From Phycisphaerae bacterium (GTDB lineage Bacteria; Planctomycetota; Phycisphaerae; Sedimentisphaerales; Anaerobacaceae), in contig JAAYBV010000067.1 in assembly GCA_012744475.1 (NCBI GenBank), positions 124,001 through 188,000 on the forward strand: 64,000 bases of DNA. The letters are read 5' to 3'. Below, in pieces: positions 26,575-49,777 of the stretch. Both the position numbers and the translations under genes were made by a program. Below the pieces are notes generated by a model. It was given only the letters and a program-made list of their open reading frames with translations, did not search any database and was not told the origin of the DNA. The first letter of the stretch is position 1, and each line of letters starts with the position of its first letter.

Positions 26575-26765
26575 CGCAGAAGCACGAATATCGAAGTCCG
26601 AATTCCGAAACAAGCCCGAATGACCCAGAATCCAAGCTCGAAACACGGAGGCCATCGCGTGCAACTGGGCCCTGCCCATGCAAAGCGAGGCGAATTTGGA
26701 GCATTTGGACTTCGTGCTTTGAATTTGTTTCGAGTTTCTTGCTTCGGATTTCGAGTTTGTCCTCG
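26575..26765. repeat. Foldback element E1 (period-7 inverted-repeat element)
   Basis: The left arm has units GAATATC, GAAGTCC, GAATTCC, GAAACAA. The right arm, near 26718-26760, is the reverse complement of the same type of sequence (units GAAATCC, GAAGCAA, GAAACTC, GAAACAA). The element could fold into an imperfect cruciform of about 190 bases. Copies with matching arms are at 26955-27110 and 42985-43155. ORFs across it are spurious. The rest of 26316-27055 holds the terminator, a structured segment and E2. Confidence 0.65.
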
Positions 26766-26914: not shown

Positions 26915-26954
26915 CCTTTTTCTATCGGGACGCCCCCGGCAGGTCACGGAGGCG

Positions 26955-27110
26955 AAAGTTCGAAGTACGAAAATCGAAACCCGAAACAAACCCCAATCAC
27001 CGAAACTCGAATGCCCCAAAGCCCCCCGCCCAAGCCCGTTTCCGAATTTGGGGTTTCAGGCTTTCGAGCTTGTTTCGGATTTCGACATTCGAATTTCGGA
27101 TTTGAGGCCC
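26955..27110. repeat. Foldback element E2 (period-7), abutting the glycosyltransferase 3' end
   Basis: The left arm carries units GAAGTAC, GAAAATC, GAAACCC, GAAACAA; the right arm, read on the minus strand, has GAAATTC, GAATGTC, GAAATCC, GAAACAA. The right arm overlaps the last codons of the ORF 27056-27673, so the protein's tail (SEIRMSKSETSSKA) and stop codon come from the repeat, not from the glycosyltransferase family. Confidence 0.65.
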
Positions 27111-27673
27111 CGGCCGTTGCCGTTGCCGGCCGCTTCGAGAATCCCGATGATCCGCGAGACACTGCGCTCGCGTCCGAAATGCTGCTCGTAGTAGATGCGG
27201 GCGTTGCGGCCCATGCCGTGCTGTAGCGCGGGATTCGTCGCCAGCCGCCGCAGCACATCGGCCGCCTCCTCGACGTCGCCCGGCTCGATCACAAAGCCCG
27301 AGCCGCTCTCCCGCACGATGCGTCCCACCTCGCACTCGACAGGCCCAATGAACAGCGACGGCCGCCCCGCCGCCAGCGTGCTGTAGATCTTGCTCGGCAC
27401 CAGCAGGCCCTCGGTGCCCGGCTGCTGGCAGATCAGGTGAATGTCACCCCGCGCCAGCAGAGCCGACAGCTCCTCCAGCGGCACGGGCGGCCGAATCTCC
27501 GCATCCGCCAGCCGCAGCTCGGCAACCAGAGCGCGAACCGCCGCCAGACCCTTGCCGTCGCCGGCGATAAGCACCTTGAGGGCGGCCTGGCCGTTCAGCC
27601 GCGCCACAGCCCGCAGGGCCGTGCCGACGTCCTGCCCGAGGCCCACATTACCTGAATAGAGGAGGGTGGCCAC
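27056..27673 (-). CDS. C-terminal (donor-binding) half of a GT4 glycosyltransferase, split gene
   Basis: The 205-codon ORF begins at a GTG (VATLLYSGNVGLGQDVGT) that is really the interdomain region of a WbuB-like GT-B glycosyltransferase. The segment shows the nucleotide-sugar-binding half: LKVLIAGDGKGLAAVRAL, a LLVPSKIYSTLAAGRPSLFIG motif equivalent to the family's PxK-glutamate/lysine donor site, and ESGSGFVIEPGDVEEAADVL. There is no N-terminal acceptor half in this ORF. Reading upstream in the same frame crosses a period-7 repeat array and then a TAG at 27722-27724, beyond which lies the end of the N-terminal half (27722-27958). The C-terminal 14 or so residues are encoded by foldback element E2. 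Likely a decayed or split enzyme of the EPS locus; function as an isolated domain is doubtful. Confidence 0.7.
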   Translation of the reverse strand: MATLLYSGNVGLGQDVGTALRAVARLNGQAALKVLIAGDGKGLAAVRALVAELRLADAEIRPPVPLEELSALLARGDIHLICQQPGTEGLLVPSKIYSTLAAGRPSLFIGPVECEVGRIVRESGSGFVIEPGDVEEAADVLRRLATNPALQHGMGRNARIYYEQHFGRERSVSRIIGILEAAGNGNGRGLKSEIRMSKSETSSKA

Positions 27674-27915
27674 CAGGGAGTGATGACTGATAATTGATGA
27701 TTGATGATTGATGATGGGCCGCTACGAGCCAAGAGCCACCGGCTCCGGGCGCTTCGCCGGCGGCCGATCATGGACCGTGACACCCTCCCCGGGCGTCCAG
27801 TTGTGCACCGTGTGCAGCCGGCCGGCCTCGACCCCGGCCGCCGCCAGCCGCTGCGTCATCACCTCCCCCAGCGAGATCACCGCCTCGACATCTCGATACA
27901 GCCTCCGATTGAACC
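27618..27915. repeat. Direct repeat, copy A (glycosyltransferase interdomain segment)
   Basis: About 295 bases, nearly identical to 28942-29233, including GCCTGAATAGAGGAGGGTGG-like sequence, the period-7 array and the codons for ISLGEVMTQRLAAAGVEA to VALGS. The two copies flank the SGNH hydrolase gene. Differences are scattered point changes plus array length. Confidence 0.8.
27681..27718. repeat. Period-7 array A1 inside the glycosyltransferase gene
   Basis: Tandem heptamers of the ATTGATG type (three near-perfect units plus flanks) lie between the two GT-B halves. The array keeps the reading frame from the upstream TAG to the GTG at 27673 (51 bases, 17 codons). Confidence 0.75.
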
Positions 27916-28941: not shown

Positions 28942-29233
28942 TTGTGCGGATGTCCTGCCCGATGCCGATGTTGCCTGAATAGAGGAGGGTGGCCACTTGG
29001 GATTGATGATTGATGATTGAGAATTGATGATGGGCCGCTACGAGCCGAGCGCCACCGGCTCCGGGCGCTTCGCCGCCGGCCGATCATGGACCGTGACACC
29101 CTCCCAGGGCGTCCAGTTGTGCACCGTGTGCAGCCGCTCGGCCTCGACTCCGGCCGCCGCCAGCCGCTGCGTCATCACCTCCCCCAGCGAGATCACCGCC
29201 TCCGCATCCCGATACAGCCTTCGACTGATCCGG
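28942..29233. repeat. Direct repeat, copy B (glycosyltransferase interdomain segment)
   Basis: Matches copy A at 27618-27915. In copy B the segment downstream of the array encodes only the start of the C-terminal half (LLYSGNIGIGQDI) before running into a TAG next to the SGNH gene start, and it is in a different frame relative to the N-terminal half. Confidence 0.8.
29001..29034. repeat. Period-7 array A2
   Basis: Tandem GATTGAT-type heptamers (GATTGAT, GATTGAT, GATTGAG, AATTGAT) in direct repeat copy B, at the same position as array A1 in copy A but with different unit order. Confidence 0.75.
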
Positions 29234-29697
29234 CCCAGCGCGCGGCACAACCGGCCCCGCCCGGCCAGCACGCCGTACGCGGCCGCAATCTCCGGATACA
29301 CGTCCATCACCCACAGCACGTTCCGCGTGCCCCGCATCTTGCTCAGCATCCACCCGATCAGCGCGATGAACGGCGGCGTCGTCAGCGAAAGACACACATC
29401 GGGCCTTGCCAGCCGCAGCGCCCGCCACGCCGCGCTGAAGTAGAACGAGACGTAGTCCGCCGCCCGGCCCGCCAGCCGCCTTCGCCCGAACCCCGTCGTC
29501 AGCACGCGATGGACGTGTACACCGTCGAGCACCTCGTCCGCCGCCGGCGTCAGCGACCCGCCCCCGTACCGGCGGCGACTACAGATCACGTGCACCTCGT
29601 GACCCCGCGCGACAAGCGCCTCGCCCACGTCCGCCAGCAACTGACCCGTCGCCGCCACGTCCGGCCGATAGAACTGATTCAGCAGCAAGATTCGCAT
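29038..29697 (-). CDS. N-terminal (acceptor) half of a GT4 glycosyltransferase, split gene
   Basis: A 219-residue ORF starting MRILLLNQFYRPDVAATGQL, the classic start of WbuB-like GT4 enzymes, followed by VGEALVARGHEVHVICSRRR, LSLTTPPFIALIGW and VMDVYPEIAAAYGVL. It ends VALGS at a TAG (29038-29040) directly before a period-7 array. The normal family length is about 400 residues, so only the acceptor-side Rossmann domain is present. The donor half exists 1.3 kb downstream (27056-27673), separated by a duplicated segment and the SGNH cassette. It is GC-rich, unlike the neighbouring EPS genes. Probably inactive unless complemented by the separate C-terminal half. Confidence 0.75.
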   Translation of the reverse strand: MRILLLNQFYRPDVAATGQLLADVGEALVARGHEVHVICSRRRYGGGSLTPAADEVLDGVHVHRVLTTGFGRRRLAGRAADYVSFYFSAAWRALRLARPDVCLSLTTPPFIALIGWMLSKMRGTRNVLWVMDVYPEIAAAYGVLAGRGRLCRALGRISRRLYRDAEAVISLGEVMTQRLAAAGVEAERLHTVHNWTPWEGVTVHDRPAAKRPEPVALGS

Positions 29698-29699
29698 AG

Positions 29700-29990
29700 A
29701 AGAACAGCTTTCAGCAGACAGTCTTCAGTTCACAGTTCTCGGCCGTCGGCCGCAGACGTATCTCGTATCTGGTATCTCGTATCTCGCATGCTCGTAGAAG
29801 GGTAGATGCGTAGAAGCGTAGATGGGTCATACTTCAAACTGGAAACTGACAACTGGCAACCGTCAACTCTCGTATCTCGTGAAGCGTGAAGCGTCAAACG
29901 TCAAACTGAAAACTGGCAACTGCCAACTCGGCCGCAGGCCGTAGCCATTCATCAATCGTCAATCATCAATAGTAAATCCCTGCGCCCTTC
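29700..29990. repeat. Large degenerate heptamer array A3
   Basis: The gap 29698-30079 has no intact gene. The array shows successive runs with a 7-base period whose unit drifts: TATCTCG-type, then TTCAAAC/TGGAAAC/TGACAAC/TGGCAAC, then TGAAGCG/TCAAACG/GGCAACT, then ATCAATC/GTCAATC. A short run has period 8 (TAGAAGGG, TAGATGCG, TAGAAGCG). It includes the palindrome CGGCCGCAGGCCG near 29931. Confidence 0.8.
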
Positions 29991-29991
29991 C

Positions 29992-30041
29992 CCCGCCGCC
30001 ACGTCCGCCCGATAGAACTGATTCAACAACAAAATACGCAT
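29992..30041 (-). pseudogene. 50-bp stub of the GT4 glycosyltransferase 5' end
   Basis: On the minus strand from ATG 30039-30041 the sequence reads MRILLLNQFYRADVAA, matching the first 16 codons of the 29038-29697 ORF with one change, then diverges into repeat array A3. It is a remnant of a third copy of the gene's 5' end, at the boundary between the array and the EPS island. Confidence 0.75.
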
Positions 30042-30079
30042 GGTAGAATAGGTCTCAGGTTTCAGTTCACCGTTCACAA

Positions 30080-31060
30080 CTACGCGATGAGGCGCTGCTC
30101 GCGCAGCCAACGGATCGTTTCTCTTACACCACTCTCCAGCGTGTAAGGCAAAGGGCCACAGAGCTTGTTTGTTGCAGCCATGGATACCCCGATAGTTGTA
30201 TCGGCCCTCATGTTTCCCAGCCGAAAGGACGTCATCGGTAGATTTCTGCAGCCGAGCTTCCGTAGACAGTCTCCGCCCCAGGCGGCGACTCTCATGATAC
30301 TATCGGGAATCGTTCGGGCAGGTCTGCCATGAAGCTGTACGGCAATCGAGTTCGCCCAGTCCCTTATCGTGCATGGTTCATAATCGGAGAGATAGAAGGG
30401 CTTCCCATGCACAGCCTCGCGCGGGGCTTCGAGCAGTCTCATGATCTGGAAGACTGTGTTGCCGACGTAGCCGTAGCTCTTCGGAGGATTCGCCCTGCCC
30501 GGATGGAAGTAGCGACCCTTCGCAACTGTCAAAAAGAAGGGCTTATACGGAATGCCGAACCACGGACCCCAAATGGACGTGGCCCGGCCGATGAGCCATT
30601 CGCATTTGAGTTTCCTGCTGCTTCGAATGATCTTCTCGCCATCCGCCTTGCTTTGACCGTACACGGTGTCGGGATTGTAGTCTTCCCAGGAACGAGGCTG
30701 GTAGCCCGTCCGGCAGACAAGCTTGGAGGACATGAACAGACAGCGTTCTACCGACTCGCATCCGGTAAGCCCGTCGATCAGGCACTGGACTCCAAGGAAA
30801 TTCACGTCATAGTCATTGAGAGAGGTTCCGTTGAAATCGGTCTTCGCCGCAAGATGGACAACATGTGTTGGAGCGAACTCCTTGAAGACTCGCGCCAGTG
30901 CCTTGGCCTCGCGCACATCAACAGACTCAAACACCGATGAATGCGCGGTGTTCTGCGGCTCCTTTATATCGATGCTCAGGACCACCATACCTTTGCCGAG
31001 CAAATGGCCGACAAGATTGGTGCCGATGAAGCCGGAGCCGCCGGTGACTAAGATTCGCAC
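30080..31060 (-). CDS. NAD-dependent epimerase/dehydratase (extended SDR)
   Basis: A 326-residue nucleotide-sugar epimerase/dehydratase-type enzyme. The N-terminal RILVTGGSGFIGTNLVGHLL is the GxxGxxG NAD-binding loop, HVVHLAAKTDFNG follows, and the catalytic YxxxK is YGQSKADGEK near residue 140. It probably makes or modifies a nucleotide sugar for the EPS repeat unit. The start is a GTG at 31060, with AGGAG 8 nt upstream, and overlaps the 3' end of the upstream glycosyltransferase by 13 bases, so translation is probably coupled. It is the last gene of the AT-richer EPS set; array A3 and the GT stub follow. Confidence 0.88.
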   Translation of the reverse strand: MRILVTGGSGFIGTNLVGHLLGKGMVVLSIDIKEPQNTAHSSVFESVDVREAKALARVFKEFAPTHVVHLAAKTDFNGTSLNDYDVNFLGVQCLIDGLTGCESVERCLFMSSKLVCRTGYQPRSWEDYNPDTVYGQSKADGEKIIRSSRKLKCEWLIGRATSIWGPWFGIPYKPFFLTVAKGRYFHPGRANPPKSYGYVGNTVFQIMRLLEAPREAVHGKPFYLSDYEPCTIRDWANSIAVQLHGRPARTIPDSIMRVAAWGGDCLRKLGCRNLPMTSFRLGNMRADTTIGVSMAATNKLCGPLPYTLESGVRETIRWLREQRLIA

Positions 31061-32196
31061 AAGAGATTCTCCTGCATATCACTTGGACGAACTCGGATCA
31101 TACTCTCAAATATCTCCCTGTAAGACTGCGCCATGATTTCGGGCCCCAGCCTCTCTCTCACGATCTCAGTCGCGATACGTGACTCACAGGGGTCGGCTGC
31201 TAGCCCCCGTTCTAATGCCCGCGCCAGACCCACCGCATCCTGTGTAGGGAACAGCACGACACCTGGGACCAATGAAGCAAGTTCCCTGTGTGCGCCTATG
31301 TCGCTCACAACACAAGGCAACCCACATGCCAAAGCCTCAATGACAGACAACGGGAGGCCCTCAAGCCACGATGCAGATACGTAGATATCTGCGGCTCGCA
31401 AGTACTTCTCCGCTTGCTTCGAGAACCCCACGAAGGTTATCCGTGGCGCGTTACCAGCGAGTTCCTCGCAGTAGCGCTTCGCAGGACCATCGCCGACTAT
31501 TACGAGGAACGCCTTGTCATGAAATCGACTCCGAAGAAAGCCCGCAATCACGGTAGCGACGTCCTTGCATTTGTCGACTCGCCCCATGAAGACAATGATG
31601 CTGCAATGCGCTGGGAGGCCCAGCTCCGCACGTAGGATTCGCTTCTCCTCTGGATCAGCCGGGCGGTACACGCCATAGTCTACGCAATTCCTGATTACGG
31701 CGATCTTCTCTTGGAGACGCTTGGGAGCAGACTGCTTCACAGTCTCCGAGCACACCACTATGTAATCCATGCGGCTCAGCGCGCGGCAGTGCAAGTACTC
31801 CATGATCCTGCCAAGCACGGGGCCGTGCCACGCGACATGCAAGCTATGGAACAACTCGTGGCGCGTGCACACTCGCATGATGCGGCAGGCGACCATCGAA
31901 GAGAGAACATCAGCCCTAAAGCCAGACGAGTGAATTACGTCGTATTGCGTGGCGTCCAAGTAGCTACGGAGGCGTGATGCCGCGAAGAAAAGCCCTTTGC
32001 CGCGGTTCATCGCAAGCGAATGGCACGCAACTCCTTGTTCGACGAACTCATTCCACAGGGACTCGGGGGGCTCAGGCGATAAAGTTAAGATCTCTGGTTC
32101 AAACGCTGTCCGATCCAGCCGTCCCAACAGAGTGCGAAGATGAATCGTAGGGCCTTCATTCGCAAGCGTTGAACACACATAGAGAATCCGTCGCAT
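31048..32196 (-). CDS. GT4 glycosyltransferase
   Basis: A 382-residue GT-B glycosyltransferase. The N-terminal domain starts MRRILYVCSTLANEGPTIHL and includes YDVIHSSGFRADVLSSM. The donor domain shows IIVFMGRVDKCKDVATVIAGF, FLVIVGDGPAKRYCEEL, VGFSKQAEKYLRAADIYVSA and the family EX7E motif ASWLEGLPLSVIEALACGLP, with both glutamates present. The track's GTG at 32205 is rejected in favour of the ATG at 32196, which has GAGGAG 8 nt upstream, leaving 5 bases after the previous stop. It presumably adds one sugar to the lipid-linked EPS repeat unit; donor and linkage are unknown. Confidence 0.92.
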   Translation of the reverse strand: MRRILYVCSTLANEGPTIHLRTLLGRLDRTAFEPEILTLSPEPPESLWNEFVEQGVACHSLAMNRGKGLFFAASRLRSYLDATQYDVIHSSGFRADVLSSMVACRIMRVCTRHELFHSLHVAWHGPVLGRIMEYLHCRALSRMDYIVVCSETVKQSAPKRLQEKIAVIRNCVDYGVYRPADPEEKRILRAELGLPAHCSIIVFMGRVDKCKDVATVIAGFLRSRFHDKAFLVIVGDGPAKRYCEELAGNAPRITFVGFSKQAEKYLRAADIYVSASWLEGLPLSVIEALACGLPCVVSDIGAHRELASLVPGVVLFPTQDAVGLARALERGLAADPCESRIATEIVRERLGPEIMAQSYREIFESMIRVRPSDMQENLLCES

Positions 32197-32201
32197 AGGC
32201 G

Positions 32202-33323
32202 TCACTCCTCGTGTGCCAGCGCAACGGCTTCAATAAATGGCAATGCGTTGTTAGTCATTATGTTGTACCAGGAGTGGTCAGATACAGAGGATAGTATCTT
32301 TCCCGAATCGTACAGCCGTAACCTTTGCGCCAGCACACGCAATCCACTGCAGAATGCGTCTGGAGTGTCATCGATCAACACACCATTGTCATCACTGACT
32401 ATCACCGCGTTCTGCTTGGTCGCCGTGGCAATAACAGGCATACCCGCAAAGAAGTATTCATAGGTCTTCGTTGGCGGCTGACAATCATAGTATGGAGTCA
32501 TGGGTACATACGAGACGCCAACATTGCAGCATTCATAGTAGCTTGTGAGTCGTTCTCGCGGTACGTAACCAGGCAGTGCGATCCTATCGGTTAGGCCGAG
32601 TTCATGTACAAGCATTTGCAGTCGATGTCTTTCACCGTCTTCTGAATCTCCGACGAGGGTGAAATGCGCATCGGTCGAGGCCCCCTCTTCGCGGCAATAG
32701 ATAGCGAATCCCTTTATGGCTTCGGACAACCGACGATTCAGAAATGTTCCCACATACAGCAAACGCAGGCATGACATATCCCGAGTGAGGATGGGAATCG
32801 GATTAGCTCCTAGGGGACAGATATGTGTTCTCTCTCGGGGCAGACGGAGATAACGACGCATAGCGTCGCAGAGGACGCTGATTCTCCCAAACGCCCTTGC
32901 CTCAGCAGAAATCAGGAGATTGCGCACACCACGTCTCATCCAACTGCCTGAAACTGCGCCCGATCGAATGTCCAGAATGAAGCGTCTCCGTGCGTTTACA
33001 CACCGCAGGAGAGAACACATGGGGAAATAGTACAGGTAGACTATGTCATAGTCCTCCCGACAGGCACGAGCACACGCGTCAAGCCACTTCCAGATTCGAC
33101 ACAGGACGTGCGAGGAGCGATCGACCACGCTATGCCTCACTGCATGAGGCACGGTGTCACTCGCCCCGTCCATCGGGCCACGACCAAGTGAGATAACCGT
33201 CACGGCGTGCCTGCACCCTACGTGTTTGACCAGTTCAACTGCATCTGTTATGAAGCCAAATGGGCTGCAGCAGACAACTAGAATGTTGAGTGGCTGCTGT
33301 GTGTATGAATCGTGTGGATGCAT
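32202..33323 (-). CDS. GT4-like glycosyltransferase
   Basis: A 373-residue GT-B-fold protein. The N-terminal half begins LNILVVCCSPFGFITDAVELVKHVG; the donor half contains LRLLYVGTFLNRRLSEAIKGF, HFTLVGDSEDGERHRLQML, LPGYVPRERLTSYYECCNVGVSY and TKTYEYFFAGMPVIAT, where the usual glutamate pair is reduced to one (KTYEYFF). This pattern matches more divergent GT4 members. It starts 2 bases after the stop of the Wzy-like gene and is AT-richer than the window flanks. Probable role: a sugar transfer in EPS repeat-unit assembly. Confidence 0.85.
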   Translation of the reverse strand: MHPHDSYTQQPLNILVVCCSPFGFITDAVELVKHVGCRHAVTVISLGRGPMDGASDTVPHAVRHSVVDRSSHVLCRIWKWLDACARACREDYDIVYLYYFPMCSLLRCVNARRRFILDIRSGAVSGSWMRRGVRNLLISAEARAFGRISVLCDAMRRYLRLPRERTHICPLGANPIPILTRDMSCLRLLYVGTFLNRRLSEAIKGFAIYCREEGASTDAHFTLVGDSEDGERHRLQMLVHELGLTDRIALPGYVPRERLTSYYECCNVGVSYVPMTPYYDCQPPTKTYEYFFAGMPVIATATKQNAVIVSDDNGVLIDDTPDAFCSGLRVLAQRLRLYDSGKILSSVSDHSWYNIMTNNALPFIEAVALAHEE

Positions 33324-33325
33324 TG

Positions 33326-34825
33326 TTAAGATCCGCCTGCCAACGTAATCATCTGCCTCCGTCTATAGTGCCAATGTTGCCGCACCGGCACAGACATAGG
33401 CTCTCGACGAGATACTGACCCGGTTAACAGCCCGGCATAAGCCAGCAATGTAAGCGTTACCGGGTTGGCAGTCACGACTATGCCACTGTAGAAGAAGTAC
33501 ATATAGAACGTAAGAATGAACCCCAAGAGCACCCCAAAGTGGATTGCCCTCCATCGGCATGGCAGTGTCTCTATGCTCACCGCGCGCATCATATCCCGCA
33601 CCACGGCTCCGTAAGCGGCCAGGAACAGAACCATGCCGGGGACGCCTATGGAGACTACGTCCATAGACCATCCAGTAATCCCATACGCAATATGCAACGT
33701 AGAAAAGCCATATCCACCCCCCTCCTGCTCCCCTCTACTCTCACTAAACGCATTCGGCCCAAAGCCGAAGAGAATGCGCCAGATATCTGCCGATGATAAA
33801 AAACGCAATATCTTAATGCTTGTACTGGTGCGGCCCATTGTCCGCCCGTCGGACAACTCACCCCGTTCATACTCACTCGCAAATCGAAGGGCGTCCGTGA
33901 ATCTCTCAACCACTGAGGCGTGCGGATTCCCGGACGACAACCCATAGCTGCGATCCATTCCGTACAACCACAGTGGCAACGCGATAAGGGCACATATGGC
34001 CGCGTGCCTCAAGATGCGCCTGAGAGTATTGGCGCGCAGGTGCTCACTGCGCAGAAGATATATCAGCACACAGAGCAGGACGTGGCACGGAACAAGGAAG
34101 TAGATGGCACGTTTCCCGCTTGCATAACCCACAATGGTGAATGACAGGGCGATGAGCATGACCCACAGAGACTGCCGGATATAGAAATAGTAGCCCAACG
34201 CACCCCCAATGGCAAATAACGGAAACAATGTCGCCAACTCCCCACCGGAGACAGTCATTGTCCCTACGCGCCATTCGACCCTTCCAAATAAGGCGGCATG
34301 AAGCACAGACGCGCCGATCTGCATTAGAAATAGGGACACGACAAAGCCATTTATCATCTTCAGTTCACGTCCCTGCCACCCGGGTATCCGAAACACATGG
34401 TACAGTGCAAACCCATAGAACGTATAACGCGCATATTTGAATCCATCGATAGGGCTGCTCTCTGGAGAGCACATGCCTGCGAATAGGGACCAGAAAACAT
34501 AAGCCAGGGCCATACAAAATGCAACGGGAGGTCTATGCCGCCGCCACAGTCCAGCTATCACAAGTACTATCACAGCCTCGACAGCGAACCGCACAAGCAT
34601 AGACTCGTGCTCACCACTGCTGGCGGGACTACTGCCAAACACGTGTTCGGATACGCTTCCTCGCAAGAACAGCGTAAGAAAAAGGAGAACCAGAAGCGGC
34701 ACTCGCAGAGAATATTCTATCTTGCGCAAACGACTGGTAGGTCCTGTACCGCCGACGAAGCGTGGAGATCCGAATCTCCGCGCCCGTCCGTAGGAGTTCC
34801 CCTCTGTACGAGAATAGCTGATCAC
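33326..34825 (-). CDS. Wzy-like O-antigen/EPS polymerase (multi-pass membrane protein)
   Basis: A 499-residue integral membrane protein with about 10-12 hydrophobic segments (for example LRVPLLVLLFLTLFL, VEAVIVLVIAGLW, LWVMLIALSFTIVGYASG) and a large periplasmic-type loop around residues 290-380. SGKRAIYFLV and the ILFGFGPNAFSESRG segment resemble the O-antigen ligase/polymerase superfamily (Wzy_C). It probably polymerises flipped repeat units in the periplasm. The start is a GTG at 34825 with AAGGGG about 7 nt upstream; the preceding gene ends 14 bases before it. The N-terminal 35 residues are cytoplasmic and basic. Sequence similarity in this family is low, so polymerase versus ligase is inferred from context. 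Confidence 0.8.
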   Translation of the reverse strand: MISYSRTEGNSYGRARRFGSPRFVGGTGPTSRLRKIEYSLRVPLLVLLFLTLFLRGSVSEHVFGSSPASSGEHESMLVRFAVEAVIVLVIAGLWRRHRPPVAFCMALAYVFWSLFAGMCSPESSPIDGFKYARYTFYGFALYHVFRIPGWQGRELKMINGFVVSLFLMQIGASVLHAALFGRVEWRVGTMTVSGGELATLFPLFAIGGALGYYFYIRQSLWVMLIALSFTIVGYASGKRAIYFLVPCHVLLCVLIYLLRSEHLRANTLRRILRHAAICALIALPLWLYGMDRSYGLSSGNPHASVVERFTDALRFASEYERGELSDGRTMGRTSTSIKILRFLSSADIWRILFGFGPNAFSESRGEQEGGGYGFSTLHIAYGITGWSMDVVSIGVPGMVLFLAAYGAVVRDMMRAVSIETLPCRWRAIHFGVLLGFILTFYMYFFYSGIVVTANPVTLTLLAYAGLLTGSVSRREPMSVPVRQHWHYRRRQMITLAGGS

Positions 34826-34839
34826 TGCGATGCCCCTTG

Positions 34840-35952
34840 CTACAGTGATAATGCCGCACTCCGGAACAACTCTGTCATCGCAGAAAGGTTAGCTAACGAG
34901 TGGTTCTCAAAAGCATACTTGCGTGCGGCCTCACCCATGGCATCCCGCAGCTGGGGGTCCTGAATTAGACGCCGTGTATCCATGCACAATCTGTCAAATG
35001 TGTGTGAGTGATATCCTAGGCCATACCGCGCGATGACGTCGTCGGGATCTACGTTCAGGCTAACCACGGGTACCCCACGCATCCAGGCTTGAATGAAGGT
35101 ATTTGAGAAACCCTCGTATTGGCTCGTACTGACAAGGATGTGGCTCTTCGCAAGGAGTGCGTTGACATCCGCCATACGCAATTCACCGCGATAATCAATC
35201 TGCGACGCGCGCGCAAGCATCTTTTCAACCGAGCGTTGGTAAATGCGGCCGCCAGCACGCCCGGCCATAATGAACGAGGCTTCCACGTGTTGGCACAATC
35301 TCGCTGCCAGTCGAATGAACACCTTGGGTTGCTTAGACGGCTTAATATTCGCAATCCAGAGCACCTTCACAGGCGAGCGCGCTCTTTGGATGTGCTCAGG
35401 TGGATAGGGATGCCAATTTGGAACAATGGCATCGCAGGATCGCTTGAAGTTCTGGCCCAGAAGCTTGTCCTGATAGTGAGCCTGTCCAACAATCACGGAA
35501 CTGTGGCAAATACCATAATGGAGCCATCGTCGTTCAACCAGGGTCTGAGGACTCCGCCACCATCGTATGATGCAAACCTTTTCGACATCGGGACTGCTAG
35601 CGATATGCCACACCATCTTGCACTTGTGTGACCTGCAGTATTCGGCCGCTATGCCCGTCCAAGCACATCCGTGTGTTTGGTATACGATATCGGGGCAAAT
35701 ACCATCTAAAGCCTTGATAACGCGTTGCCTGTACATGAGGGTATTTGTGCCTAGCCGCTCTGGCCATCTCATCCTCGCAATGGGAACCAAGTGTATTTCA
35801 GAGTCAGATTCAAAGGGGGCATGATTATCTATGAATATGTAATGTACGTCATGGCCAGATTCCTGCAGGTGTTTGGCAAGGAGATACGCACGATACTCCG
35901 CCCCGCCTACACGCTGCTCATAGTAGTTTGGTATCAAGAACGCGACTCTCAT
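34840..35952 (-). CDS. GT4 glycosyltransferase
   Basis: A 370-residue GT-B glycosyltransferase. The true start is ATG 35950-35952 (MRVAFLIPNYYEQRVGGAEY), overlapping the ATP-grasp gene stop by ATGA; the track start at 36018 lies inside that gene. N-terminal GGAEYRAYLLAKHLQESGHDVHYIF and VYQTHGCAWTG belong to the acceptor side. The donor side includes VKVLWIANIKPSKQPKVFIRLA, FIMAGRAGGRIY and the EX7E-type motif STSQYEGFSNTFIQAWMRGVP, in which the second glutamate is replaced by glutamine (QAW). It is in the translationally coupled EPS operon; donor and linkage unknown. Confidence 0.9.
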   Translation of the reverse strand: MRVAFLIPNYYEQRVGGAEYRAYLLAKHLQESGHDVHYIFIDNHAPFESDSEIHLVPIARMRWPERLGTNTLMYRQRVIKALDGICPDIVYQTHGCAWTGIAAEYCRSHKCKMVWHIASSPDVEKVCIIRWWRSPQTLVERRWLHYGICHSSVIVGQAHYQDKLLGQNFKRSCDAIVPNWHPYPPEHIQRARSPVKVLWIANIKPSKQPKVFIRLAARLCQHVEASFIMAGRAGGRIYQRSVEKMLARASQIDYRGELRMADVNALLAKSHILVSTSQYEGFSNTFIQAWMRGVPVVSLNVDPDDVIARYGLGYHSHTFDRLCMDTRRLIQDPQLRDAMGEAARKYAFENHSLANLSAMTELFRSAALSL

Positions 35953-37049
35953 ATGCCCTCCGCTGAACGCACTGCAATCTGTGCAAGCATGTCTTCCAGT
36001 ATCGCGTCCTGCGGCCACATCTTACCATCGTGCCACTTGAGATTTCCGTCCCAATGGCCGGGGCACTTCGCGACTTGTCCGTTGGCGGGAAATGCATAAC
36101 TCATTTCGATCAGGTGGGGCCCTCGCGACTCGTCTCTGATGAAGTCGTATGCGGTGCTCTGGAGGTTCAGACGGCGGCTAACTTCATAAGCGAGCCTGAT
36201 GAACTCAGTGTCAATCTTCTTGCGGTCGAGTATTGTAGAGCCGCTGCCTGAGGCTCGAAAATCATTCCTTCGCACCTCCCGCTGAAAGGCGAAGGCACGA
36301 TTACCGATTACGACAACTCGCGTGTCGTGCTTGTTGCCGGGGATAAAATCCTGAAAATACACATAACCTCTTTCTCGGCCCATGCGCCTCTCGATGTCTC
36401 CTGGAATCACACATCGGAACAAGGCCCCTATCAAACCCCTCGCAGTGTGGTGGGTGCGACAGTGATGGAACGCAGAAATGCTATCTCGGAGCGAAGCGCG
36501 CCGGTTGATAGGACTGAACCCGGCACCGAATGCTTTCCGGATCAGGCGGGCTGCCTCAGATCGTGTCCTTACTAATAACACGTTGCTGGAGCCCGCCCCT
36601 CCCCGCAATTTGAAGACTTTCGGGTAATCGGTTGCTCCTGCCCACTCCATTGCCTCCTCTTCATCATAGAAGACGTAAGATGGCACTAGCGGAGCGCCAA
36701 TTGCCTCTAGGAGATACTTCTGTCCAACCTTGTCGTCAAAGTGCCAACAAGTGCGGCTGTTTGGGAATACGAGCTTACCAGCAGCCTCCAATGAGTAGGT
36801 CAGCTGTCTGGCAAACAGTCTCGCCCGACAGTCGTAATGATTCCAATGCCAGAGGAACGCAGCGCATGACCTGAGATGCTGGATAATATCGCTGTCGTAG
36901 CAATTCACCAGATCATACCGGATGCTATTCTCAGTGCAGTACTCAATCCATCGGTCGGAAAAGCTGCCGGGCCGGTGGTGAATGGCGAGTGTTGTGCATT
37001 TTGACCTCTTCATGTGTGCCACACGCAGAACTCTTTCGGGATATGTCAT
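35949..37049 (-). CDS. ATP-grasp (RimK-like) protein of the EPS locus
   Basis: A 366-residue protein of the ATP-grasp superfamily. The family features are FPNSRTCWHFDDKVGQKYLLEA, YPKVFKLRGGAGSSNVLLV (ATP-binding lysine and glycine-rich loop), YVYFQDFIPGNKHDTRVVVI, FAFQREVRRNDFRASGSGS and LIEMSYAFPANG, where the late metal-ligand region would be. RimK-like ligases join a carboxylate to an amine; in polysaccharide clusters they are suspected to attach amino acids or similar groups, but no substrate can be read here. Start choice is uncertain: 37049 is the full ORF, but the in-frame ATG at 37013 (MKRSKCTTLAIHH) may be the real start; neither has a good Shine-Dalgarno. Confidence 0.85.
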   Translation of the reverse strand: MTYPERVLRVAHMKRSKCTTLAIHHRPGSFSDRWIEYCTENSIRYDLVNCYDSDIIQHLRSCAAFLWHWNHYDCRARLFARQLTYSLEAAGKLVFPNSRTCWHFDDKVGQKYLLEAIGAPLVPSYVFYDEEEAMEWAGATDYPKVFKLRGGAGSSNVLLVRTRSEAARLIRKAFGAGFSPINRRASLRDSISAFHHCRTHHTARGLIGALFRCVIPGDIERRMGRERGYVYFQDFIPGNKHDTRVVVIGNRAFAFQREVRRNDFRASGSGSTILDRKKIDTEFIRLAYEVSRRLNLQSTAYDFIRDESRGPHLIEMSYAFPANGQVAKCPGHWDGNLKWHDGKMWPQDAILEDMLAQIAVRSAEGI

Positions 37050-37120
37050 ATGGGAGTGATTAATGGGGTGATGGAGCCCATCATATCTCTACGATTACAC
37101 TCAATGAAGGCGCCAGCGAG

Positions 37121-38584
37121 TCACCTTTGCCGGATGCCGCTTGCCTCAACAGGTTTCCTTTGCTGCAAGAGCAAACTACCAATCCATAGGATGAGGGCAC
37201 TGTTTAGAAGGAAACCTAGAGCGGAAAACACGGCAACCGTTGACAGCGCCGACCAATAGAGTCCACCAACAAGTAGTATGATCGTACGCGAGAACAGTAC
37301 GATACATTCATAGAGAAACAAATTTCTTTGCTGCCGGAGTATCCTGGCGAACAGGTTAGCTGGCACATTGCAGAATCCGGCATACATCCACAGTGTCAGC
37401 CACCGCGCAAACATCCCAGCCTCCCACCAGTCTTCTCCAAAACCCCACGAGAAGAGCTCCGGGGCCCAGATGAATACAACAATACTGGGCAACAAAGCCA
37501 CCGCCATTAGGCCACCAGTCGTCTTGATGAACAATTGAAGTAGACCGCCTCCCTGGTTATGTGTCTCGCTGGCTTTCTGAAAAAGCACCTGCCGGAGGGC
37601 AGTCAGAATGAAGTCCATTGGCACATGTATGAGCTTCATGCCAAAGGCATAAGCTCCGGCAACGGCAATGCCATGGAAGTGAGCCAGCATCAGCACTGGT
37701 AGTCCCTGCGAGACAGCGTTCATTGTATTCTGCGTTGCGCTATAGACAGGGAAGTCACGGTACACTCTCGCCTGGCTGGCTATCCGTCTCCAGTTCAAGG
37801 ATTCCTTCAGCAGGGCTTTGTCCGCACATAGGACCCTGCGAGCCAGGCTCATACTGGCGATCCCATTGGCAGCAACGGAACTGACGATCAGCCCGGGACT
37901 GCCTTGATTCAGAATGCCAAACACAATTTTCAGCATGTTGGAGGAGCCAGCTCCAAGGATTTGTGAAGATGCAGTCGTCGTGAATGCCTTTCTCCTGACA
38001 CACCAAGCCTGGAACGACCGATTGATCCCCGCCACAAAGATGCCCAGCGGAAGGAACCAAAGCAGCCATGCCGACTGGGGCGCTTTCAACAGCCCGAGTA
38101 GCCAATCCGAGCGCAGATACGCCACCAGCAAAGCTACCAAGGTGACAATACAAACAGATAGAAGGGAGGCCCCAAATACGTTCGCGGCATCTTCCTCGTT
38201 TCGAGGCAGCATGAGGGCTTGCGAGTACTGCAGCGTCGCGAATGCGGCCACAACCAACAGGATGGAATTGAAGGAACCCAACACGCCGAAATCGGAGGGG
38301 GTGAACAGACGGCTGATCACTGGCGCGATGGCAACGCCAACTGCCTGGGCGACAACCGTGCCCCCCAGAACGACAGACATGTTCCGGAAGAACTGGCTGC
38401 GGCCAAAATACCGGATGAGTGCCGAACCCCGCAGTCTTGGCCAAAGCCCGCATTCGGAGGTTTCGGGGAGGTCCACTGCCTCAAGTGAACTCACTTGTTC
38501 CGCGTCAGCGGTCAGGAGGGCAGCCTCGTCTGGAATGCTGTGAGCGAACCGCGCTTTCGTCTTCTCAGGTCGGGTCCCGAACAT
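37121..38584 (-). CDS. Wzx-like polysaccharide flippase (lipopolysaccharide biosynthesis/MVF family)
   Basis: A 487-residue multi-pass membrane protein with about 12-14 predicted helices. After a roughly 65-residue hydrophilic N-terminus, helices begin with FFRNMSVVLGGTVVAQAVG, and the TPSDFGVLGSFNSIL region is typical of the Polysacc_synt family (helix 1-2 signature). It likely flips undecaprenyl-linked repeat units to the periplasm for the Wzy-like polymerase encoded downstream. The N-terminal extension is unusual and no Shine-Dalgarno precedes the 38584 ATG, so the true start could be the methionine at residue 69. It is the first gene of the AT-richer EPS block; array A4 lies about 100 bases upstream. 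Confidence 0.88.
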   Translation of the reverse strand: MFGTRPEKTKARFAHSIPDEAALLTADAEQVSSLEAVDLPETSECGLWPRLRGSALIRYFGRSQFFRNMSVVLGGTVVAQAVGVAIAPVISRLFTPSDFGVLGSFNSILLVVAAFATLQYSQALMLPRNEEDAANVFGASLLSVCIVTLVALLVAYLRSDWLLGLLKAPQSAWLLWFLPLGIFVAGINRSFQAWCVRRKAFTTTASSQILGAGSSNMLKIVFGILNQGSPGLIVSSVAANGIASMSLARRVLCADKALLKESLNWRRIASQARVYRDFPVYSATQNTMNAVSQGLPVLMLAHFHGIAVAGAYAFGMKLIHVPMDFILTALRQVLFQKASETHNQGGGLLQLFIKTTGGLMAVALLPSIVVFIWAPELFSWGFGEDWWEAGMFARWLTLWMYAGFCNVPANLFARILRQQRNLFLYECIVLFSRTIILLVGGLYWSALSTVAVFSALGFLLNSALILWIGSLLLQQRKPVEASGIRQR

Positions 38585-38679
38585 GAAAGGAATTTCTTCA
38601 ACCTTGCACTGCTTTTTCCTTACCGGGTTTGGGTTATCGGGCAGTCCGAAAGTGGAGCTTTCGAGTGCGAAGGGCAGAA

Positions 38680-39045
38680 TGATTGATTATTGACGATTGA
38701 TGAATGGAAGTTCGCGGTTGGCAGTTATCGGTTCTCAGTTCGCGGTTGGCAGTTATCGGCTGTCAGTTGGCGGCAGTAGCTTTTGCGGCCTGCGGCCGGG
38801 CGAATTGACTATTGATGAATGGAAGTTCGCGGTTCTCAGTTCTCAGTTTCAAGTTCGACGCTTCACGCTTCACGGGCGACGGGCGACGGCGTTAAAGAGG
38901 CCCGGCGGGCCGGCTCTGACGGGGCCGGCCCGGGGGCGACTGGTTACTGACAACCGTCAACTGTTCCCTGTGATCTGACCGCTGTCAACTGTTCCCTGAC
39001 AAGTGCTCCCTTCGCACTTTTAGCTTCCCACTTGTCAGTTCTCAC
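38680..39045. repeat. Large degenerate heptamer array A4
   Basis: The gap 38585-39052 is almost all repeat. Units in register include TTGACGA, TTGATGA, TTCGCGG, TTGGCAG, TTATCGG, TTCTCAG, then CTTCACG, CTTCACG, GGCGACG, GGCGACG. The palindrome CGGCCTGCGGCCG is at about 38788, and the array continues to the stop codon of the Fn3 gene at 39053. Confidence 0.8.
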
Positions 39046-39052
39046 TGCGTTC

Positions 39053-39661
39053 TTACAGCACGACGACCACCGTATTGCTCGGCTCTCCTTCGCCAGCCTT
39101 GTTGACGCTGATGACGCGGTACTCGAACTCCTTGCCGCGAGGCTGGTCGATCAGCGTGACGGTGGTCTCGACGGCGGTGGCGACGTCGAGCCAGGGCCCG
39201 GCGGGCCGTTCGCGCCGCATGATGCGATAGGCGCTGGGCTTGCCGCCGTCGACCGGGGCCTTCCAGGCCAGCTCGACCGTCGCTTCCTCCTGCCGCACGG
39301 CTGCCAGCAGTCGGGCCTGGCCCGGCGGGGCCAGCGGCGTGGGCGCTTTGCGCGGCGACCAGCCGATGAGCTGCAACTGCTCGCTGTCGGCGCCGACCGT
39401 CGTCTCGGCGTAGCGGATGTTCTTCTTCATGAGCCCGACGAGCTGGCCGAGGATCATGTCCTTGGTCGACGTCGCCTCCTGGGCCGCCGTCTGCTTGGTC
39501 AGAAGGCTGGCCCGGGCCTGGGCATAGGCGTCGCGCACGTTCGTGACGTACTCGACTGTCACCGGCGGCGCGGGGAAGACGTCCTCGTGCTCGGTCAGTC
39601 CGGTGATCATCTCATCGGCCAGTGTGGCCACATCCGATTCCGTGGTGGGGAATCTTGCCAT
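39053..39661 (-). CDS. Fibronectin type III domain protein
   Basis: A 202-residue protein without a signal peptide. Residues 1-100 are mainly helical and uncharacterised (TESDVATLADEMITGLTEHED, ARASLLTKQTAAQEAT). Residues about 110-200 form one Fn3 domain (TVELAWKAPVDGGKPSAYRI to EFEYRVISVNKAGEGEPSNT). AAGGAGA lies about 7 nt before the ATG. It is GC-rich like the chromosome and sits between two repeat arrays (A4 immediately after its stop codon, A5 upstream). Proteins with this layout occur in planctomycetes, but no function is known to me. Not obviously part of EPS assembly. Confidence 0.75.
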   Translation of the reverse strand: MARFPTTESDVATLADEMITGLTEHEDVFPAPPVTVEYVTNVRDAYAQARASLLTKQTAAQEATSTKDMILGQLVGLMKKNIRYAETTVGADSEQLQLIGWSPRKAPTPLAPPGQARLLAAVRQEEATVELAWKAPVDGGKPSAYRIMRRERPAGPWLDVATAVETTVTLIDQPRGKEFEYRVISVNKAGEGEPSNTVVVVL

Positions 39662-39861
39662 ATACAGTCTCCTTGCTCAGGCCGCCGGCGAAGGGCCGAC
39701 GGCGGTTGCCTGCGCAACGCGGCACATCCATGCCTGGCGCTGCGCGCATTGGACCATGGGCAAGCGCTCGCTCAAACTGGGCCCGCACGTCTCATGGCGC
39801 CATCTATCGGCCGGGCAAGGGGGAGACTTCAGCAGAAAGGGAAAAAATGTCACGGGGCGAT

Positions 39862-40240
39862 TCGCTATTGATTGTTGATGAATGGCGGTTGGCAGTTTTC
39901 AGTTGGCAGTTGGCAGTTGTCAGTTACCCGTTGGCAGTTGTCAGTTGACGGCTTCACGCGTCACGGCCTCCAGCCTCCAGCCAAGTTTCAAGCGATGAGT
40001 CTGAAGTTTCACGCTTCTACGCATCCACGCTTCTACGTGTGCGGCCTGCGGCCGGGTGTTAAGTGACAAGTTCTGAGTTTCAAGTCTGAAGTGACAAGTT
40101 TGAAGTTCTACGCTTCACGTTTCACGAGATACGAGATACGAGATACGAGCAAAGCCTGTCCCTTCGGCGAGGCTCAGGGCAAGCTCCGAGCGAAGTCGAG
40201 GGAAGCGACGAGACGCGAGCGACGAGACACGAGTCACGAA
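39862..40240. repeat. Large degenerate heptamer array A5
   Basis: Nearly all of this stretch has a 7-base period with a drifting unit: TTGGCAG, TTGTCAG; then AAGTGAC, AAGTTCT, GAGTTTC, AAGTCTG, AAGTGAC, AAGTTTG; then ACGCTTC, ACGTTTC, three ACGAGAT units; then GCGACGA, GACGCGA, GACACGA. A period-8 run (ACGCTTCT, ACGCATCC) lies near 40010. CGGCCTGCGGCCG occurs at about 40041. The rest of the gap, 39662-39861, is the upstream region of the Fn3 gene with nothing further recognised. Confidence 0.82.
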
Positions 40241-40603
40241 TCACGGTCTAAATCGCGTTTTCGGGGCTGAGAACACGGTTCGGGGCTGTTCGGGTATCGC
40301 ATTCGAAGCTTCATCCTTCGTGTTTGAAGCTTCATCCATCAAATTGGACGCTTCATCTGTCATGGTTGCAGCTTCGTCTGTGGCATTCGAAGCCTCAACT
40401 CTCGCATTCGAAGCGTCATCTGTCTTGTTTGAAGCCTCATCCATTCCATTCGAAGCGTCAACCTTCGCATTCGAAGCTTTGTTCCAGACATTCGAAGCTT
40501 GGTTTCGGGCATTCGAGACTTGATCCAAGGCCGATGGAGCTTCGAGTATCGTATGCCGCGCGTGCCCGGCGGCGTTCGGAACCGGCTCCGGGGTATCGGG
40601 CAC
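40241..40603 (-). CDS. Heptapeptide-repeat (ASNxxDE) small protein
   Basis: A 120-residue ORF. After a 30-residue unique N-terminus (MPDTPEPVPNAAGHARHTIL) it has about ten tandem 7-residue repeats of the form ASNxxDE or close variants. The DNA repeat is 21 bases. Differences between units are mainly synonymous in this frame (GAT/GAC, GAA/GAG, GCT/GCG, TCG/TCC/TCA, AAT/AAC), which is good evidence that this frame is translated and under selection. The start is a GTG 35 bases after the MNT gene stop, so it may be the last gene of a WecA-HEPN-MNT-repeat unit. There is no signal peptide. The repeat is hydrophilic and alanine/asparagine-rich. No family was recognised. Confidence 0.55.
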   Translation of the reverse strand: MPDTPEPVPNAAGHARHTILEAPSALDQVSNARNQASNVWNKASNAKVDASNGMDEASNKTDDASNARVEASNATDEAATMTDEASNLMDEASNTKDEASNAIPEQPRTVFSAPKTRFRP

Positions 40604-41368: not shown

Positions 41369-42925
41369 TCAAATCGGCGGGGTCAGGGCCTTCGCCGACT
41401 TTGTATCTTCCTTCGGACCTGCGGTGTCATGATACCGGCCTGGGGACCGATCCGTCAACCGCTGAACCGGCGTCGAATGGCCGCCGGGCGGCTGGGGGCT
41501 GTGTTCGTCGATGAGGCGGCCGAAGAGGGTGGCGCGGCGGTTGGCGGCTTCGAGTGAGCCGTCGGCCCAGATGGCGATCTCGAACCGTCGCGGCGGATCG
41601 CCGTTGCTGGCCGCCAGCGGGATCGTCACCGTCACCAGGCGGGACATGCCCGGCTTCGGCTCCGAGGCCCGCCAGATCTCCTCCTCGATCCGCCCATCCG
41701 GGTATGTCGTCTTGAGCGAGACCCAGGCGAAGTCCATGCGGCCGGCCGCCTCGCAGACCGCGTCCCACCATTGACTCGCATCACGCACCCGGTCGAAACG
41801 CAACTCCAGGTACTCGAACGTCGCCCGCTCCTGCCGGCAGCACTGGTTCAGCACGTGCTTTTCCTTCAGGCCCGCCAGCGTCTGGCGCAGGCGCACCGCG
41901 CCGACCACGCGAAAGACCAGCACCACCAGCAGCAGGATGCATACAAAGACGATCAGTGCGCTGATGTCCCGGCAGACCATCATGAACAGGCCCAGGCCGG
42001 TGAACAGGACCGTCAGAAGGTAGATCGCCAGCACCGCGTGACGCTGGCGAAGGCCCATGTCGAGCAGCCGATGGTGGAAATGGCTGCGATCCGGGGCAAA
42101 CAGGCTGCGTCGTTCGAGGAACCGCCGCAGCATGCTGAACAGCGTGTCGAAGATCGGGATTCCCAGCGCCAGCGCCGGCAGCGCCAGGCCCACGATCGCC
42201 GAGGACTTGGTCATGCACATCACGCTGGAGGCCGCGATGGTGTAGCCCAGGAACAGGCTGCCGCAGTCGCCCATGAAGACCTTGGCGGGATTGAAGTTGA
42301 AAACGAGGAAGCCCGAGAGGCTGCCAACCAGGGCCAGCGCGAGGATCGCCATGATTGTGTTGCCGCCGTGGATGGCCAGGACCGCGATCACGCCGCAGGC
42401 GATCGCCGAGATGCCCGCCGCCAGGCCGTCCAGACCATCGCTGAGATTGACCGCGTTGGTCAGGCCTACCACCCACAGCACGGTCAGCACACAGCCGGCG
42501 TGACCAAGGTGCAGCGGCAGATCGCTGGTCAGACCGATGGCCTCGATCCGAATGCCAGCGGCGCACAGGCCGACCGCCGCCAGCACCTCGGCGGCGAACT
42601 TGATGCGGGCGGGCAACCCTCGCAGGTCGTCCACCAGCCCCACCAGGAAGATGAAGCTCGCCGTACCCAGCAGCATCGTCATTTGCAGCCACCGGGCGCG
42701 GAAGGCCTCGCCGATGACGTTGTCGATGCACAGGACCGCGACGATCAGGCTCATGGCCGCGACGAAGATCGCGACGCCGCCGATGCGTGGGATCGGACGC
42801 TCGTGGATCGTGCGCACACCCGGCCGGTCCACCGCGCCGATCCGGGGAGCGATCCAGATCACAATCGGCGTGGCGATCAGCGCCACGAGGACCGAACCGA
42901 AATAGACAGCGACATAGGTGGTCAT
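41369..42925 (-). CDS. WecA/MraY-like undecaprenyl-phosphate sugar-1-phosphate transferase with C-terminal extension
   Basis: A 518-residue membrane enzyme of the PNPT family that transfers a sugar-1-phosphate to undecaprenyl phosphate, the priming step of EPS/O-antigen synthesis. Motifs: IPRIGGVAIF, VGLVDDLRGLPARIKF (DD pair), LTNAVNLSDGLDGLAAG, VFMGDCGSLFLGY and SHFHHRLLDMGL (HxHH). About 10-11 helices occupy residues 1-345. Family members are usually about 330-380 residues; the last 170 (FEYLELRFDRVRDASQWW to the end) form an extra soluble domain. The start has no Shine-Dalgarno, and period-7 array A6 abuts the start codon. The HEPN gene follows downstream. Confidence 0.92.
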   Translation of the reverse strand: MTTYVAVYFGSVLVALIATPIVIWIAPRIGAVDRPGVRTIHERPIPRIGGVAIFVAAMSLIVAVLCIDNVIGEAFRARWLQMTMLLGTASFIFLVGLVDDLRGLPARIKFAAEVLAAVGLCAAGIRIEAIGLTSDLPLHLGHAGCVLTVLWVVGLTNAVNLSDGLDGLAAGISAIACGVIAVLAIHGGNTIMAILALALVGSLSGFLVFNFNPAKVFMGDCGSLFLGYTIAASSVMCMTKSSAIVGLALPALALGIPIFDTLFSMLRRFLERRSLFAPDRSHFHHRLLDMGLRQRHAVLAIYLLTVLFTGLGLFMMVCRDISALIVFVCILLLVVLVFRVVGAVRLRQTLAGLKEKHVLNQCCRQERATFEYLELRFDRVRDASQWWDAVCEAAGRMDFAWVSLKTTYPDGRIEEEIWRASEPKPGMSRLVTVTIPLAASNGDPPRRFEIAIWADGSLEAANRRATLFGRLIDEHSPQPPGGHSTPVQRLTDRSPGRYHDTAGPKEDTKSAKALTPPI

Positions 42926-42985
42926 GGGAAGTTGACAGTTGACAGTTGGCAGTTACCAGTTACCAGTTACCAGTTGACGGTTGAC
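42926..42985. repeat. Period-7 array A6 abutting the WecA-like start codon
   Basis: GTTGACA, GTTGACA, GTTGGCA, GTTACCA, GTTACCA, GTTACCA, GTTGACG, GTTGACG in perfect 7-base register, ending within about 10 bases of the start codon of the WecA-like gene. Part of the gap 42926-43244. Confidence 0.82.
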
Positions 42986-43155
42986 GGCGCTGCAAATCCG
43001 AAATTCGAATGTCGAAGCACGAAACAAACACGAAAGCTTAGAGCCCCAAACTCGAATCCCGGCGCGCCGGGACGGCCGGCAGTTTGAGACATTTGGATTT
43101 GTGTCATTGGAATTTGTTTCGTATTTCGGATTTCGTGCTTCGTGTTTCAAGTCCT
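42985..43155. repeat. Foldback element E3 (period-7 inverted repeat)
   Basis: The left arm has units GAAATTC, GAATGTC, GAAGCAC, GAAACAA; the right arm (from about 43105) is the inverse (TTTGTTTCG, TTTCGGATTTCGTGCTTCG). The left arm matches the right arm of E2 almost exactly in inverted orientation. The centre holds a GC-rich GGCGCGCC-containing segment. The remaining part of the gap to 43244 has nothing recognised. Confidence 0.7.
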
Positions 43156-49405: not shown

Positions 49406-49777
49406 CTACTGCCACCACCAGCCCGACCAGATCGGCGGTCGAGGTACCCAGTATGGCGGTCCCGGCACCCAATACGGCGGCCGAGGCAGCCAGTACGGCG
49501 GGCCCGGTGTCCAATATGGCGGCCACGGCGGCTTGCACGGGCTGCGCGGCCACCACCAGTCCGGGCAGTGGACCTTGCCATAGCCACCGCCGCCCAGCGC
49601 AACCATGTTTGTCGCCAAGGCCTGCTGAAGCCCGATCGTCGTCGTGGGGCTTGCGACATACGATCCCGGAGCCGCGTCACCCGGGGTCACCAGCAAGACG
49701 AACAACAACAGCACCGCCCCAAACGTCAGCAACCTGGCAAACGCGGTTCTTCGCCTTGTCGTTCCTTTCGCGTCCAT
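49406..49777 (-). CDS. Small secreted PPYW-heptapeptide-repeat protein
   Basis: A 123-residue protein with an N-terminal signal or anchor (FARLLTFGAVLLLFVLLVTPG). The mature part is rich in Pro, Trp, Tyr and Gly and ends with five 7-residue repeats of type PPYWxPG or PPYWxPR, closing with PPIWSGWWWQ. The 21-base units differ mostly synonymously (CCG/CCA, TAC/TAT, GTG/GTA), so the frame is real. The start ATG 49775-49777 has AAAGGATACC upstream; the track start is 18 bases further 5'. It is the first gene before the Wza/Wzc genes, about 115 bases after a palindromic site, so it may be co-regulated and act in the EPS matrix or the cell surface. No known family recognised. Confidence 0.72.
   Translation of the reverse strand: MDAKGTTRRRTAFARLLTFGAVLLLFVLLVTPGDAAPGSYVASPTTTIGLQQALATNMVALGGGGYGKVHCPDWWWPRSPCKPPWPPYWTPGPPYWLPRPPYWVPGPPYWVPRPPIWSGWWWQ

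Follow-up and report, generated by a model that had tools for sequence, protein, structure and literature searches.

Short tandem heptamers of the STRR type, known from cyanobacteria, are built from fixed units; compared by description rather than by sequence, they share tandem 7-nt units with the arrays presented here. PMC4692102 cites a 2007 report that heptamers are over-represented in bacteria, gives an earlier hypothesis that ties seven to the DNA segment held by the polymerase, and mentions three heptanucleotides for Calothrix PCC 7601. TAACTGA direct repeats have been described in Beggiatoaceae, cyanobacteria and Bacteroidetes, with 7-nt indels between strains (MacGregor 2015, PMC4679880).

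Our arrays lie in a window of 64,000 nt (G000:C46:124001-188000), taken from the draft genome of a planctomycete, 5.75 Mb in 118 contigs, one of which (G000:C107, 2.7 kb) is all N. Like the TAACTGA repeats, they are tandem 7-nt units, mostly intergenic, with an AACTG core and 7-nt indels; in both cases, at least in some genomes, they are mixed with other heptamers and some, here those of one permease gene family, stand just upstream of start codons (PMC4679880). In Maribeggiatoa, however, TAACTGA is a fixed unit whose single-base variants seldom occur as repeats (PMC4679880), whereas here words vary within arrays, AACTG being trailed by many different dinucleotides, and many families run together in one register. 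With bacterial heptameric SSRs they share an intergenic heptamer excess and length variation between relatives; the Xanthomonas GGGAATC and Nostoc GGGGAYT repeats are G-rich and of one unit type (PMC4692102), while the planctomycete arrays are degenerate, compound and not G-rich. The host also has dispersed intergenic palindromes, like the REP/GTAG-tagged repeats reported from Planctomycetes too, which have short stems and no 7-nt period (PMC3733652). The REP-like palindromes of the host are separate families, among them the frequent CGTAGGGGCGAATnATnATTCGCCCCTACG (e.g., C46:59375, C118:154120 and C12:5021); further families are GTGGCAGCCTCAAGC..CTTGGGGATGG..CCATCCCCAAG..GAGGCTGCCAC and GTTTGTAGTGTGCCCGTAAGGGCAT.

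A seven-nucleotide period in intergenic DNA

We counted matches per lag across the window in 42-nt windows, with a threshold of at least 30 of 42. Lag 7 passed it at 27669-27717, 29738-29789, 29831-29932, 38824-38875, 39868-39954, 40095-40158 and 42917-42994, the longest unbroken stretch being 106 nt (29825-29930); lag 14 added 38704-38778 at the same threshold, and no other lag from 2 to 13 reached it. A looser threshold adds 28990-29036, 40208-40250, 43113-43153 and 61753-61797, again at lag 7. The arrays singled out by the sequence-only reading are thus found in their places, with the words quoted for them, and so is the switch to period 8 that it had noticed, as a plus-strand run read from the sequence at 61828-61856 (TGGAATGG); its statement that arrays fill the intergenic space goes too far, only part of the spacers being occupied.

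A census of 1.04 Mb of the host genome (28-nt windows, at least 20 matches, with an order-2 Markov shuffle as control) gave 55 arrays at lag 7 (56 with one contig of N) against 2-3 in shuffled sequence. Multiples of seven followed, with 31 arrays at lag 14, 33 at lag 21 and 16 at lag 28; lag 8 rose weakly (8 arrays against 1 shuffled), lags divisible by three were raised through coding DNA, and lags 5, 10, 11, 13 and the like stayed at background. One has to keep in mind that part of this sample was chosen by AACTG hits, and the array density is therefore biased upwards; in the unselected contig C46, lag 7 likewise stands out against the other lags. With the gene calls made in this analysis, intergenic identity at lag 7 is 0.278 against 0.263 in shuffles (z 11.5; z 6.7 at lag 14 and 9.8 at lag 21), a clear excess on the autocorrelation check that had been proposed for these arrays. 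Coding DNA has no lag-7 excess, its identity (0.249) lying slightly under its own background.

Words, their order and length change in whole units

Three of the arrays in the window are long and compound. A3 (29736-29985, minus strand) runs, on that strand, through ATTGATG, a GGCC-rich module, AGTTGGC, AGTTTGA/CGTTTGA, CGCTTCA and CGAGATA before a second series begins; A4 (38680-38890, plus strand), which holds a 28-nt (four-unit) duplication, through ATTGATG, AGTTnnc, a GGCC-rich module, AGTTTCA, CGCTTCA and CGGGCGA; and A5 (39868-40158, plus strand), whose orthologue in congener G004 is shorter, through TTGGCAG, GCCTCCA, AAGTTTC, ACGCTTC and ACGAGAT. A dispersed element inside A5, CCTGTCCCTTCGGCGAGGCTCAGGGCAAGCTCCGAGCGAAGTCGAGGGA (40159-40205), has copies on contigs C118 (95%) and C20 (85% identity), and an ACGAGAC-type array follows on the plus strand (40204-40250, looser threshold). 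The simpler arrays are A6, eight AGTTGAC/AGTTACC units (42917-42994, plus strand) with an orthologue in G004; a CAATCCG/AAATCCG array (61753-61797, plus strand, looser threshold); and an ATTGATG-type array in two copies, one at 27669-27717 within a duplicated block (27641-27780), the other, at the looser threshold, at 28990-29036 within the second copy of that block (28961-29095). Two other tandem repeats were seen in the window: a 21-nt repeat beside A5 (40297-40516), whose minus-strand product (40241-40603) is a heptapeptide repeat of type DEASNxx, and a 42-nt repeat at 49433-49524, with 82% matches, which is probably coding.

The vocabulary is limited and has fixed cores: AACTGnn, aCGAGnn and CGAAnnn. 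Eight arrays have two identical ACGAGAT units side by side, and words of the AACTG type come back in many. In the compound arrays the 7-nt register is kept across changes of word, and the words follow a polar order, from GGCC-rich units to AGTTnnc or AAGTTTn, then ACGCTTC, then ACGAGnn, which is common to A3 (on the reverse strand), A4, A5 and arrays of the congeners G004 and G005. A search for exact copies of the 19-base transition motif AGTTnnAAGTTnnACGCTTCACG gave a single further genome record, that of a Planctomycetota MAG, and nothing among viral contigs, so that this specific word order is local to the host's group. A strand-specific skeleton YGnnRnY for all words is plausible by eye.

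How fast do the units drift? Over 14 clusters, identity between units at distances of one to eight is 0.566, 0.483, 0.427, 0.375, 0.324, 0.293, 0.284 and 0.276, while other lags stay at the background of about 0.25; units thus reach background by about eight units (about 60 nt). Adjacent units are therefore the closest kin, as expected under local copying and mutation. Together with the lag scan, this decay bears out the idea of a constant period along which the unit changes, but not its corollary that the period is conserved rather than the sequence: there are word families with fixed cores, their order is common to paralogous and orthologous arrays, and one stretch of more than 100 nt is identical between two species. 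The seven positions may not vary equally: in the 42 AACTG-type arrays, mismatch to each array's own consensus is 0.10, 0.11, 0.07, 0.26, 0.10, 0.45 and 0.32 from first to last position. This unevenness speaks against pure slippage, which predicts equal variation, but the number of distinct states per column over all arrays shows no unevenness among the seven positions, and the matter is unsettled.

In three homologous pairs with alignable flanks, the length difference inside the array is exactly 7, 14 and 28 nt, respectively. The second copy of the duplicated block is one 7-nt unit shorter than the first, inside the array; between conserved flanks, A6 has two units (14 nt) more in the window than in G004; and A4 carries twice a 28-nt, four-unit block whose extra copy is absent from its relative in G212 (L128), the stretch after this indel being the one that is identical over more than 100 nt. 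The comparison between relatives that the sequence-only reading had called for thus revealed whole-unit indels. As in heptanucleotide SSRs/VNTRs, adjacent 7-nt copies occur beyond chance (55 against 2-3) and copy number changes by whole units; a single fixed unit per array is not what we found, as words change along the arrays.

Of 118 genomes sampled from the whole phylum, 14 contain AACTGnn three times in tandem. Distribution within the genus is patchy, with no array in 120 kb of the congeners G002 and G003 and five in 60 kb of G006. Viral contigs hold at least 120 stretches of four AACTGnn at spacing 7, against 23 for AACTG at spacing 8 and 27 for the control word CATAG at spacing 7; these are the usable controls, since the reverse-word and scrambled controls GTCAA and ATCAG include genuine array words in rotated or complementary form. 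A step of seven is therefore not peculiar to the host organism.

Competing explanations for the arrays

Starting from the observed period, intergenic location, distance decay, 7-nt indels, common order and clumping, we read the arrays, with a probability of roughly two in three, as old and partly decayed compound heptanucleotide arrays shaped by local duplication and loss of 7-nt units and by mutation, then dispersed and inherited. Arrays would grow or shrink as whole 7-nt units, and blocks of them, are duplicated locally or lost through replication slippage or unequal exchange; point mutations would alter the words while the 7-nt register survives; whole arrays would be copied to other sites, presumably by recombination, and inherited through speciation; and, being nearly neutral as we infer, they would remain in the gaps between coding sequences and accumulate at variable loci like the EPS cluster, where genes are gained and lost. 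On this reading, neighbouring units are alike and distant ones are not because of local unit duplication and point mutation, and vocabulary and word order are common because arrays were copied and inherited. Local duplication and loss with mutation, followed by dispersal and inheritance, accounts for the period, the drift, the decay, the block duplication, the common order and the indels; the size of the step, seven, lies outside it. The unknown copying process once suggested for these arrays is not required, since a smooth identity decay and indels of 7, 14 and 28 nt fit ordinary local duplication.

The strongest competitor, to which we give a clearly smaller but real chance, is that the arrays are functional: either a repeating protein would bind core and spacer, or inverted pairs would form RNA or DNA hairpins acting between cistrons or upstream of start codons, selection keeping core and spacing in place. 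Indeed, the AACTG, CGAG and CGAA cores are constant while other positions vary, and of 115 arrays, 26 have a complementary stretch within 160 nt, where the shared vocabulary, gauged with arrays of other loci, would give about 9.5; such inverted partners, found for about a quarter of the arrays, are not predicted by slippage. Facing arrays are best seen in the spacers of operons encoding permeases that we take, from the protein sequence, to be MacB-like. On contigs C3, C8 and C15 and in G004, these spacers read stop codon, AGTT array, loop, AACTG array and GGAGTCATG, the two arrays facing each other; in the corresponding spacer of the host's copy L024, and in that of G001 (L115), a pair of inverted 8-mers (TGGAATGA) takes their place. 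Inverted arrays of heptamers or octamers precede the start codon in the spacers of tandem MacB-like permease gene families at L027, L023 and L043 (contigs C8, C3 and C15, respectively), L116 and L115. The arrays on C3, C8 and C15 stand just upstream of start codons, a point against the local-duplication reading, and those of the window elsewhere. Permease spacers fold with z from -1.1 to -5.8 against shuffles, mostly below -2, and A4 (z -4.3) and e43 (z -3.0, DNA fold; an imperfect palindrome described below) also fold better than shuffles. A3 (z -0.9) and A5 (z +0.9) do not, and inverted repeats of at least 12 nt are absent from A3; hairpins as a general explanation are rejected on the folds of these two arrays. 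Nor are there the compensatory changes in conserved helices that mark a structured RNA: a two-sided change is seen in 0 of 16 pairs of the permease spacer alignment, compensatory changes in e43 concern 4 of 35 pairs, all weak and in one sequence each, and an Rfam search at the arrays gave no match. Genes flanking the window arrays have no common function, which also argues against the functional reading in general; inverted pairs upstream of permease genes may still have a selected role.

A more speculative proposal, which we consider rather improbable, concerns the step itself. Seven nucleotides would be dictated by some widespread feature of replication, such as how long a product a slipping polymerase holds; the arrays would be its record across bacteria and phages, and their common words would make them junctions for the exchange of EPS cassettes.

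Slightly less probable still is an origin of the arrays, as arms or debris, from miniature mobile elements like e43 that spread by being copied into intergenic DNA, with the heptamers as subterminal binding sites for a transposase. e43, which adjoins A6 at 42993-43153, is an imperfect palindrome about 155 nt long, one arm of which repeats CGAA, and the other TTCG, in 7-nt steps, and its CGAA cores are almost invariant among eight copies; nhmmer finds a second copy in the window at 26952-27109 (minus strand, E 7.2e-44) and a third at 26580-26761 (E 4.5e-24). This well-defined palindrome has many copies per genome (about 15 in 1.04 Mb of the host) and is present in 43 of 294 sampled planctomycete genomes, other classes included; one viral contig was confirmed to carry it at full length, and plasmids gave no match. 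Moreover, a single cluster of linked dispersed repeats takes in 103 of the 458 intergenic regions sampled. Against a mobile origin, neither an element boundary nor a target duplication nor an encoded transposase was found, a full family search yields just one Y1_Tnp-type protein in the host genome, many arrays (A5 and the CGAGATA arrays) have no palindrome, and the e43 beside A6 sits at the orthologous place in G004.

We give very little credit to a templated enzymatic addition of heptamers, by a telomerase-like reverse transcriptase or a primase, that would set the period. The recurrence of a step of 7 in many bacteria and viral contigs (the AACTG counts given above) would suit it, but units change gradually, four-unit blocks are duplicated as blocks, losses occur too, and no candidate enzyme was identified or correlated. 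Finally, the data refute chance or assembly artefact in general: misassembly of tandem repeats does happen and some arrays lie near contig ends, but lag-7 counts far exceed shuffles, independent assemblies carry the same arrays at homologous sites and single-contig genomes have arrays too; an artefact is unlikely because arrays occur in relatives and in unrelated assemblies, the exact unit numbers still depending on reads.

Arrays at the EPS locus and borders of gene blocks

The label of EPS locus given to this region by the sequence-only reading is right: among its products are glycosyltransferases, an epimerase, a flippase (Polysacc_synt_3), a transferase (PF00953) and a Wzy_C protein. Of the 12 arrays on contig C46, 10 fall inside 16 kb, in this locus, which none of 20,000 random placements weighted by intergenic length equalled; once neighbours are merged, 6 of the 8 clusters of C46 are in the EPS locus (P = 4e-4).

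Genes left of A4 are unrelated at the DNA level to those of G212, protein matches being limited to other glycosyltransferases at 23-31% identity, and the DNA match between G004 and the window is essentially limited to A4 and its right side; A4 is therefore the border between a variable and a conserved block. A second border, at C118:130.7 kb, has an array in the host genome, different arrays in G005 and no array in G001 or G004. With these two cases to draw on, the thought that arrays promote gene exchange is an idea only. Part of the 5' end of a glycosyltransferase gene recurs across array A3 (29647-29700 and 29990-30046), as if a replaced gene had left a remnant there.

Heptamer excess, the polymerase-footprint hypothesis, TAACTGA arrays and 7-nt indels are already published; the open-access papers searched contain neither the compound ordered form in Planctomycetota nor its link to e43, nor the operon pairs. 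What is apparently new is this compound, register-keeping, ordered form, along with the inverted permease-operon pairs, the e43 palindrome and the clumping at the EPS locus. The bacterial excess of 7-nt repeats has been known for years without an accepted reason, and drifting words at a fixed step of seven, with orthologues at several distances, make both the step size and the mutation process directly measurable. If the arrays mark the borders of exchangeable blocks of surface-polysaccharide genes, they would be markers of that exchange, or substrates for it.
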